From Betaproteobacteria bacterium (GTDB lineage Bacteria > Pseudomonadota > Gammaproteobacteria > Burkholderiales > SG8-41): a stretch of DNA of 64,000 nucleotides. This document shows, piece after piece, positions 3 to 2,683 of the stretch. A program made the position numbers and the translations under genes. How positions within the stretch are numbered: the stretch's first letter is position 1; each line of letters opens with the position of its first letter. Location of the stretch: contig CANKUB010000007.1 of assembly GCA_947486575.1 (NCBI GenBank), positions 1 through 64,000 on the forward strand, read 5' to 3'. The notes beneath the pieces were generated by a model. That model was not told the DNA's origin, made no database searches, and saw only the letters and a program-made list of their open reading frames with translations.

Positions 3-1328
3 GCGCAAGCCTGCTGCGGCGTGATCAGTCGTGGCACTGCCACCATTTACAACGGCAAACTGTTCCGCGTCACGCTCGACAATCACGTGCTGGCGCTCGA
101 CATGAAAACCGGCAAGGAAATCTGGAAACAGAAATTCGCCGATCACAAGGAAGGCTACACCGCCACCAGCGCGCCGCTGATCGCCAATGGCGTGCTGATC
201 ACCGGCATGGCAGGCGGCGAATACACCACGCGCGGCTTTCTGAATGGCTGGGATCCTGAAACCGGCAAGCACCTGTGGCGCCGTTACACCGTCCCCGCGC
301 CTGGCGAGCCTGGTTCGGAAACGTGGCCGAAAGACACCGAAGCCTGGAAGTATGGCGGTGCGCCCACCTGGCGCAGTGGCGCATACGATCCCGAACTCGA
401 TCTCGTCTATTGGGGCACCGGCAATCCGGCGCCGTGGACGGCCAAAAGCCGTGATGCGCTTGACGGTCTGTACGCAAGCACGCTGCTCGCGATACGCCCC
501 AAGACTGGTGAAATTGTCTGGCATTACCAGTACACGCCGAACGATGTGTGGGACGTGGACGCCACCGACGAGCCGGTGCTCGCGGATATCACGTTTGAAG
601 GCAAGCCGCGCAAGGTACTGTTCCAGTTCAACAAGAATGGATTTGCCTACACCATTGATCGCACCAACGGCAAACTGCTGGCTGCGCACCCTTTCACGCG
701 CGTGAACTGGGCCTCACGCATTGATCTTAAAACCGGTCGGCCCGTAGTGAACGCCGAGCTTTACGATCAGATTCTCAAGGGCGAAGAAGTGTCGGTTTAT
801 CCGCAGCGCGGCGTGAACGCTGTGCCCATCGCTTATAACCCCAAGACTGGGCTGGCCTACACCAGTTCATGGGCCATCCCACGCATCTTCAAGGTCGCAC
901 CGCCAACCGGAAAGCCGCAAGTTATCGGTCAGCGCTCGACCGGGGTGATCGCGCGCCCCTACGTGGCGAAACCCGGTGAAGTGGTAGGTCACCACATTGC
1001 TTTTGATCCGGTAAGCGGCAAGAAAAAATGGGAAATTCCGCTGGTGGACCGCACCAACTCTTCAGGCATGCTGGCCACTGCGGGTGGCCTGCTTTTCACC
1101 GGCTCGGTGGAGGGCAAGTTCCTCGCGCTCGATGAAGAAACCGGCAAGACCGTGTGGGAATTCCAGACCAGCTCAGGCATCAATGCCACGGCCGTCACCT
1201 ACACACACAAAGGCCGGCAATACATCAGCATCGCCTCGGGCCTCGGCGGCAACTCGGCGCGCGCCATGTCGCGCGGCAATGTGCCGCTGGGTGGATCGAT
1301 GTGGACCTTTGCACTAATGCAAGACTAA
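3..1328 (+). CDS. PQQ-dependent alcohol dehydrogenase, 5'-truncated by window edge
   Basis: The reading frame is open to the left edge, so the gene starts outside the window. Its first visible residues include ACC, the adjacent-cysteine pair typical of methanol/ethanol-family quinoproteins, which lies about 100 residues into the family. Beta-propeller blade motifs follow (DMKTGKEIW, DPETGKHLW, RPKTGEIVW, DEETGKTVW). The stretch GTGNPAPW and then NDVWDVDATDE correspond to the PQQ site. WD holds the presumed catalytic Asp, and a second Asp lies two residues later, the position that separates lanthanide-type from calcium-type enzymes. The family oxidises alcohols in the periplasm and passes electrons to cytochrome c; a c-type cytochrome gene follows 19 bases downstream. 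Substrate unknown. Family call is firm; metal preference is inferred. Confidence 0.92.
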   Translation, partial: AQACCGVISRGTATIYNGKLFRVTLDNHVLALDMKTGKEIWKQKFADHKEGYTATSAPLIANGVLITGMAGGEYTTRGFLNGWDPETGKHLWRRYTVPAPGEPGSETWPKDTEAWKYGGAPTWRSGAYDPELDLVYWGTGNPAPWTAKSRDALDGLYASTLLAIRPKTGEIVWHYQYTPNDVWDVDATDEPVLADITFEGKPRKVLFQFNKNGFAYTIDRTNGKLLAAHPFTRVNWASRIDLKTGRPVVNAELYDQILKGEEVSVYPQRGVNAVPIAYNPKTGLAYTSSWAIPRIFKVAPPTGKPQVIGQRSTGVIARPYVAKPGEVVGHHIAFDPVSGKKKWEIPLVDRTNSSGMLATAGGLLFTGSVEGKFLALDEETGKTVWEFQTSSGINATAVTYTHKGRQYISIASGLGGNSARAMSRGNVPLGGSMWTFALMQD

Positions 1329-1347: not shown

Positions 1348-1677
1348 GTGTTTTTTTTGAAATGGTTTTTATTGCTTCCCGTGTTGGCGTTCGCGAGTGG
1401 TGCGGGTTACGCACAGGCGCCCGGCGGCAGCGCATTCGCGCCGGCACAAATACAGCGCGGCGCGAATGTCTTCGCCAACTTCTGCACACCGTGCCACGGT
1501 GAACGCATGGGCAACCCGGAGTTGTTCAACCTGCGTGAATTTCCAAAAAGCGAGCGCGACCGCTTCATTAATTCCGTGTCCAACGGCAAAAACGGCATGC
1601 CGCCATGGCGCGGACAACTCAAGCCCGACGAGATTGAAGCCCTATGGGCCTATGTCTCGACAGGTGATAAAGACTAA
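1348..1677 (+). CDS. Small class I cytochrome c
   Basis: 109 residues beginning at GTG, with an N-terminal hydrophobic signal peptide (FFLKWFLLLPVLAFASG) ending near AYAQ-like residues. One heme site, CTPCH, lies near residue 48, and a GMPPW stretch near residue 86 offers the axial methionine. The C-terminal helix (PDEIEALWAYV) is typical of mono-heme cytochromes c. It sits 19 bases after the PQQ dehydrogenase and probably takes electrons from it in the periplasm. The size and the pairing fit a dedicated electron acceptor. The partner assignment is inferred from position only. Confidence 0.88.
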   Translation: MFFLKWFLLLPVLAFASGAGYAQAPGGSAFAPAQIQRGANVFANFCTPCHGERMGNPELFNLREFPKSERDRFINSVSNGKNGMPPWRGQLKPDEIEALWAYVSTGDKD

Positions 1678-1720: not shown

Positions 1721-2683
1721 ATGCACCACCGCATCCTCGTCGCTGCAATCGTTTCTGCTTGCCTCTCGGTAACCTGCCTCGCCGCAGACTTCCCCGAAAA
1801 ATCGGTGCGCTTCATTGTGCCGTTTCCGCCGGGTGGCGGCACCGACGCGCTGGCGCGCATCCTCGCCTCAAAACTCACCGAGTCGTGGGGCCAGCAAGTC
1901 ATCATCGATAACCGTGGCGGCGCACAAGGCAGCCTTGGCACCGCGCTCGGAGCCAAGGCTGCGCCGGATGGCTACACGATTTTGCTCGGGCATTCGGGTG
2001 CGCTTGCGATCAATCCGCACATGTATTCCAACCCCGGCTATGATACGCTGAAAGATTTTGCGCCAGTAACGCGCGGCACCGAGATGCCGTACATACTGGT
2101 GCTGCACCCTTCGGTACCGGCGAAAACGATGAACGAACTCGCGCAACTCGCGAAGCAGCATCCGGGCAAACTCACTTTTGCCTCAACCTCTGCCGGCCCG
2201 CAATTGATGGGCGAACTGTTTCGTCTGATGACCAAAACAGACATGGTGCACGTGCCCTACAAAGGCGCGGGGCCTGCGGTAATTGATCTACTCGGCGGAC
2301 ATGTGGGGATCATGTTCTCCGTACCAAGCTCTGTGAATCCACACATCCGCGCGGGCAAGCTGCGGGCGCTGTCGGTTTCCGGCATGAAGCGCGATGAAAG
2401 CCTGCCTGATGTGCCCACGATGATTGAAGCGGGCTTCAAGGATTACGGCGATGCGCGCGAGTGGTACGGCATTCTTGCGCCCGCCGCAACATCGGCCGAC
2501 GCCGTGGCAAAGCTCAACGTGGCGCTGGTGCGCGCGCTGAATGCGCCCGATGTACACAAGCGCCTGCAGCCGCTGGCACAAAAGCCCGTGCCCGGAACAC
2601 CTGCTGATTTCGGTGACTATATTCGCACGCAGTACGGGCTTTGGAGCAAAGTGGTCAAGGTTACCGGCGCAAAAGCGGAGTAG
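1721..2683 (+). CDS. Tripartite tricarboxylate transporter substrate-binding protein (Bug/TctC family)
   Basis: 320 residues from the ATG at 1721, preceded by GGAG seven bases upstream; the ORF track extends this frame too far left. Signal peptide about residues 1-22. Family hallmarks in order: the ligand-loop motif PFPPGGGTD, DNRGGAQGS, APDGYT, HVPYKGAG followed by DLLGGH, and the C-terminal tail VTGAKAE. Bug proteins are periplasmic two-lobed receptors for carboxylates, working with TctA/TctB membrane proteins or in sensing. No tctA or tctB is present in this window. The ligand cannot be read from sequence. It follows the PQQ dehydrogenase and cytochrome by 43 bases and may be co-transcribed with them. 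Confidence 0.93.
   Translation: MHHRILVAAIVSACLSVTCLAADFPEKSVRFIVPFPPGGGTDALARILASKLTESWGQQVIIDNRGGAQGSLGTALGAKAAPDGYTILLGHSGALAINPHMYSNPGYDTLKDFAPVTRGTEMPYILVLHPSVPAKTMNELAQLAKQHPGKLTFASTSAGPQLMGELFRLMTKTDMVHVPYKGAGPAVIDLLGGHVGIMFSVPSSVNPHIRAGKLRALSVSGMKRDESLPDVPTMIEAGFKDYGDAREWYGILAPAATSADAVAKLNVALVRALNAPDVHKRLQPLAQKPVPGTPADFGDYIRTQYGLWSKVVKVTGAKAE

Follow-up and report, generated by a model that had tools for sequence, protein, structure and literature searches.

A lanthanide-type quinoprotein family in a likely PQQ-scavenging betaproteobacterial genus, with one member that appears to have become a selenoprotein

The function of the vicinal disulfide beside PQQ in PQQ-dependent alcohol dehydrogenases (PQQ-ADHs) has long been debated. 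Regarding the metal site, Asp299 and Asp301 are among the lanthanide ligands listed for the XoxF enzyme of structure 4MAE (PMC11845868), and lanthanide (Ln) coordination in XoxF and type 2b enzymes reportedly requires an extra Asp, located two residues beyond the catalytic one (PMC11996626). The same D-x-D signature occurs in membrane glucose dehydrogenase (m-GDH), an enzyme that accepts Ca, Mg, Zn or Sr (PMC11996626), and PedH is able to bind Ca (PMC11845868). Therefore, D-x-D predicts but does not prove Ln dependence. A survey by Voutsinos et al. 2025 revealed D-x-D in 61% of ocean PQQ dehydrogenases and genomes with up to 70 D-x-D dehydrogenase genes (PMC11996626). In view of this survey, quinoproteins with D-x-D in multi-copy genomes are an already known kind, and the signature described below adds one more lanthanide-type enzyme to a class whose wide distribution is established. 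The gene that carries it lies at the left edge of a stretch of 64,000 nucleotides (the window), and the most surprising result of its analysis, an apparent Cys-Sec quinoprotein, is encoded outside the window.

The left edge of the window is the start of contig C7 in a 5.35-Mb genome of 282 contigs, and this contig start cuts the 5′ end of the gene. The reading frame (frame +3) is accordingly open at the edge and ends with a TAA stop at 1326-1328 (Table 1). The end of another contig, C232, is identical to window positions 3..134, so that 132 bases inside the gene are shared, and it encodes an N-terminal part with a signal-peptide-like start and the first blades. Owing to this match and the signal-peptide-like N-terminus, C232 is probably the missing half of the window gene, or else a near-identical or strain allele; a mismatch at window base 2, which is synonymous, suggests strain variation or near-identical copies. 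Full-length orthologs of the window gene encode 555-559 aa and score 543.8 and 536.3 bits against TIGR03075, above its curated cut-off of 480 bits, and the 5′-cut window copy scores 446.9 bits. By these model scores, the gene product is assigned to the PQQ-dependent methanol/ethanol dehydrogenase family.

An initial annotation of this DNA had read the active-site segment NDVWDVDATDE with Asp at 552 and 558, and the codons of frame +3 confirm it (N540 D543 V546 W549 D552 V555 D558 A561 T564 D567 E570). In a phmmer alignment, WDVDATDE falls on WDYDGVNE of 4MAE (XoxF, SolV). The second Asp is thereby placed on Asp301, in agreement with the proposal that it occupies the lanthanide-ligand position of XoxF and PedH, and the Glu, the Asn and the catalytic Asp are present as well. 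The Ca enzymes differ at the second position, which is Thr in 1KV9 and 1YIQ and Ser in 1FLG. The PQQ-stacking features, namely the vicinal Cys pair, a Trp and an Arg, were also found. The Trp is the equivalent of MxaF Trp243, a position that stacks on PQQ.

Table 1. Coordinates of the features discussed (window positions unless a contig or locus is named).
Feature	Position	Strand	Remarks
PQQ-dependent alcohol dehydrogenase, methanol/ethanol family, D-x-D type	3..1328	+	C-terminal 441 aa
Vicinal Cys-Cys (TGC TGC)	12..17	+	disulfide stacking on PQQ in characterized enzymes
Glu, predicted metal ligand	219..221	+	by alignment; MxaF Glu177 / XoxF SolV Glu172 equivalent
Trp, presumed PQQ-stacking position	369..371	+	on GGtTW of 4MAE
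Asn, predicted metal ligand	423..425	+	MxaF Asn261 / XoxF Asn256 equivalent
Active-site segment NDVWDVDATDE	540..572	+	
Catalytic Asp	552..554	+	XoxF Asp299 / MxaF Asp303 equivalent; phmmer alignment
Extra Asp, putative lanthanide ligand	558..560	+	XoxF Asp301 equivalent
Arg of IDRTNG, invariant	660..662	+	MxaF Arg331 equivalent
Small secreted c-type cytochrome (CTPCH)	1348..1677	+	Pfam Cytochrome_CBB3 6.9e-17
TctC-family solute receptor	1721..2683	+	Pfam TctC 4.2e-62
PqqU-type TonB receptor	G000:C223:3351-5345 (L201)		carries each of the five PQQ-binding residues considered in PMC12124388
In-frame TGA of the C19_1 orthologs	L076 917, L077 2758, L078 and L079 (minus strand)		G011:C149, G013:C39, G005:C122, G001:C155

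All 14 window-gene orthologs retain the D-x-D signature, together with the Glu, the Asn, the Cys-Cys pair and the Arg. The signature also occurs in all 19 paralogs of the same genome in which the site is readable, among about 20 such PQQ-ADH genes, and in 140/140 distinct PQQ-ADH proteins of the fetched relatives. This conservation, with neighboring residues that vary, argues against chance. D-x-D is a feature common to a large family, not a rarity. In a phylogenetic tree that included five structural references, the window gene, its paralogs C221, C279, C143_1-4, C19_1-4, C56 and C117 and five window-gene orthologs form a clade of their own (support 100/99), apart from PedH/ExaA, XoxF and the type II enzymes; in this tree, the window gene falls in neither the XoxF nor the PedH clade, lying apart from 4MAE and from 6ZCW/1FLG. 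Its highest identity to the five characterized references is 41%. An AlphaFold model of an ortholog 92% identical to the window gene (L081; mean pLDDT 73.6, moderate) has the lanthanide-dependent PedH (6zcv/6zcw) as its closest solved structure (E 1.8e-40), with Ca enzymes close behind. As the active-site loop of this model (298-306) is poorly predicted, the model was left out of the judgement of ligand geometry.

Several observations on the paralogs and their sources may be added. Contig C143 of the window genome (G000:C143, L023 2102-9307) carries four PQQ dehydrogenase genes on the same strand, in which the vicinal Cys pair is replaced by GG, ST, SG or SS; in these four enzymes, the Glu metal ligand is replaced by Asp and D-x-D is retained. 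The contigs L083, L084, L085, L088, L093, L096, L100 and L101 are of freshwater-type betaproteobacterial MAGs with the public title Bordetella parapertussis, a label that looks wrong because their genes match the genus of the window genome.

The invariance of the extra Asp may be read in a second way, namely that it is an inherited family feature of a metal-promiscuous enzyme that performs with Ca2+ at least as well as with lanthanides. D-x-D is present in all 140 relatives whatever their other ligands, including 18 with the Glu to Asp replacement, which fits such an enzyme, as do the metals used by m-GDH and the Ca binding of PedH. These two cases also show that the initial annotation, in stating that the enzyme needs a rare-earth metal, was right about the lanthanide-type motif but overstated the dependence. 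On the other hand, the reported requirement for the extra Asp in Ln coordination, together with its absence from the Ca references 1KV9, 1YIQ and 1FLG, speaks against promiscuity, which we consider unlikely. The lanthanide reading of the window enzyme is the likeliest, and its assignment to the lanthanide type is well supported by sequence, short of proof. The interpretation given in the initial annotation is, as a whole, partly supported.

Downstream of the dehydrogenase gene lies a separate cytochrome c gene, the product of which is the probable electron acceptor of the enzyme; of 14 relatives, six likewise have a cytochrome beside their ortholog of the PQQ gene. The TctC-family receptor gene that follows had been taken as an unusual neighbor, the gene being counted among the few of its kind beside a TctC receptor. 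This does not hold, because TctC receptors are dense here and are found beside six or more further PQQ-ADH loci. In the window genome, TctC genes adjoin PQQ-ADH genes at C221, C56, C143, C19, C8 and C4, and the 64-kb window contains 11 TctC-family ORFs spanning 1721-56735, a very large expansion. An orthologous TctC gene (78-86% identity) is found directly downstream of the PQQ gene in six other relatives, and this arrangement occurs in the window gene's own subclade.

Regarding the supply of the cofactor, model searches for PqqC and PqqE gave no score in any of the 14 genomes of the genus; as a control, five (PqqE) and six (PqqC) other genomes of the order exceeded the cut-offs. PqqU-type TonB receptors, which are 39-47% identical to E. 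coli PqqU (44% in G000), were found once per genome in eight of the nine genus genomes checked, the remaining one (G011) being an 84% complete genome without a match, and also in a genome of a sister genus. The PqqU signature consists of an aromatic residue at 99, Arg304 and Arg365 (PMC12124388). Each of the eight receptors of the genus has F99, R304 and R365, the signature is also kept in the sister-genus copy, and the G000 receptor additionally keeps K274 and R536. The genus is likely a PQQ scavenger that apparently must import PQQ, and the window enzyme probably runs on scavenged PQQ. As no PQQ synthesis genes were found, the enzyme could be an idle apoprotein unless PQQ is supplied. Since the genus has some 20 such enzymes and a PQQ importer but yielded no genes for PQQ synthesis, its rare-earth-dependent alcohol oxidation would need the cofactor of other organisms. 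The possibility that these proteins hold PQQ no longer and serve another role, which would fit a genus that does not make PQQ, the loss of the vicinal Cys pair from several paralogs and a second-best NCBIfam match to the model of acido-empty-quinoprotein group A (far under its cut-off), is very improbable, given that the PQQ and metal residues of the window gene are fully conserved, that a PqqU-type importer with the binding signature is present, and that the cut-off of TIGR03075 is passed and that of TIGR04528 is not.

The explanation that we regard as probable as a whole is a periplasmic lanthanide-type PQQ alcohol dehydrogenase of the methanol/ethanol family that uses imported PQQ and a neighboring cytochrome and is one of about 20 paralogs. 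In this mechanism, Ln3+ would be positioned against PQQ by four residues: the Glu, the Asn, the catalytic Asp and, two positions later, the extra Asp. The alcohol substrate would be oxidized at PQQ, and the product of the neighboring gene, the small cytochrome c, would take up the electrons. The cell would not synthesize PQQ but import it through the PqqU-type TonB receptor. The D-x-D paralogs are a lineage-specific expansion, and the individual enzymes probably differ in the alcohol that they act on.

One line of this expansion departs from the others at the vicinal Cys pair. In four genomes of the genus (G001, G005, G011 and G013), the ortholog of the paralog C19_1 has an in-frame TGA in place of precisely the second Cys codon of VVCCGQSYRG, and the same codon is TGC or TGT in 13 other C19_1 orthologs. 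The window copy, which has Cys-Cys, and the paralogs of its genome have no such UGA. A pseudogene or sequencing error was rejected, since the same codon is affected in four separate assemblies with otherwise intact frames of 83-87% identity. An 8-bp hairpin follows each TGA (TATAGAGG-CGTGTC-CCTCTATA; in G001, the variant TATAGGGG/CCCTCTATA); its loop opens with C-G-U, 17 nt downstream of the UGA, and its folding energy is -9.2 to -10.2 kcal/mol. Bacterial SECIS elements are defined by a loop of 3-9 nt with G in the first two positions, a distance of 16-37 nt from the UGA and a dG of -7.5 or lower (PMC13188914), and all four hairpins lie within these constraints. The observed energy is reached by about 1% of synonymous shuffles, and the Cys orthologs fold more weakly at this site (-7.7 kcal/mol at most). 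The Arg codons in the hairpin are AGA/AGG, in place of the CGN codons found where a Cys ortholog has Arg at that site.

The machinery for selenocysteine (Sec) insertion is encoded in the same genomes. Genes for tRNA-Sec exceed the cut-off in G000, G001, G005, G011 and G013, and SelB does so in G000, G001, G005 and G011; in G013, SelB is split over contig ends. SelA adjoins SelB in G000, G001 and G005. The Sec forms cluster together in a tree (support 94/96) and retain D-x-D, in the form FDLDANWE. By the combination of UGA, SECIS-like hairpin and Sec machinery, the TGA-containing C19_1 orthologs are apparently a bacterial selenoprotein, which looks like a selenocysteine PQQ dehydrogenase. Outside the genus, a TGA form was found neither among near-orthologs (E <= 1e-225) in 399 genomes of the order nor among candidates (E <= 1e-120, three scored per genome) in 369 genomes of the class. 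In 399 genomes of the phylum, the sole match to the pattern C-U-D-x-V-N-R-G (G1059) was rejected as chance, its frame being full of stops. Another PQQ dehydrogenase copy (L080, G003:C105, about 1648-2988) has an in-frame TAG near its C-terminus; it was set aside, as the TAG is away from the Cys pair and the gene looks like a broken copy.

The 119 prokaryotic selenoprotein families inventoried in 2026 include no PQQ enzyme, and full-text searches of an open-access library found no report of selenocysteine together with PQQ, a quinoprotein or methanol dehydrogenase. If true, the assignment would add a selenoprotein family missing from that inventory, and a lanthanide, PQQ and selenocysteine would be expected together in one enzyme, with a Cys-Sec bridge under the quinone. 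The Sec sister line would also give a natural Cys/Sec pair with which to probe the role of the vicinal disulfide. Taken together, it is probable that the genus scavenges PQQ for a lineage-specific family of lanthanide-type quinoproteins, and that a single member of this family has turned into a selenoprotein with a UGA and a SECIS-like hairpin.

Compared with the characterized enzymes, the window enzyme has the D-x-D, Glu, Asn, vicinal Cys pair and fold of PedH/ExaF (lanthanide-dependent ethanol dehydrogenases, ADH type 2b; 6ZCV/6ZCW), its top structure match. However, it is 40% identical to them, belongs to a separate clade and comes from a host with about 20 paralogs and no PQQ synthesis genes found. 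With the XoxF lanthanide methanol dehydrogenases (4MAE, 6DAM, 6OC5, 7O6Z) it shares the whole set of metal ligands, D552/D558 corresponding to Asp299/Asp301, whereas it is 37% identical to 4MAE and lies outside the XoxF branch, and no xoxG or xoxJ was seen beside the window gene. The type II quinohaemoprotein ADHs (1KV9, 1YIQ; Ca) give the best phmmer score, at 41% identity, but have Thr where the window enzyme has the extra Asp. Their chains of 668-689 aa continue beyond the match into a haem domain; the window ORF ends there, at 1328, so that a fused C-terminal haem-c domain is absent and the cytochrome c is a separate gene. Finally, the multi-copy Ln-PQQ dehydrogenase genomes described by Voutsinos et al. 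2025 (UBA9145, Acidobacteria MAGs) also show large D-x-D expansions per genome. In contrast to these, the family described here belongs to freshwater betaproteobacterial MAGs, forms a different clade and includes one apparent Sec paralog line in four genomes.
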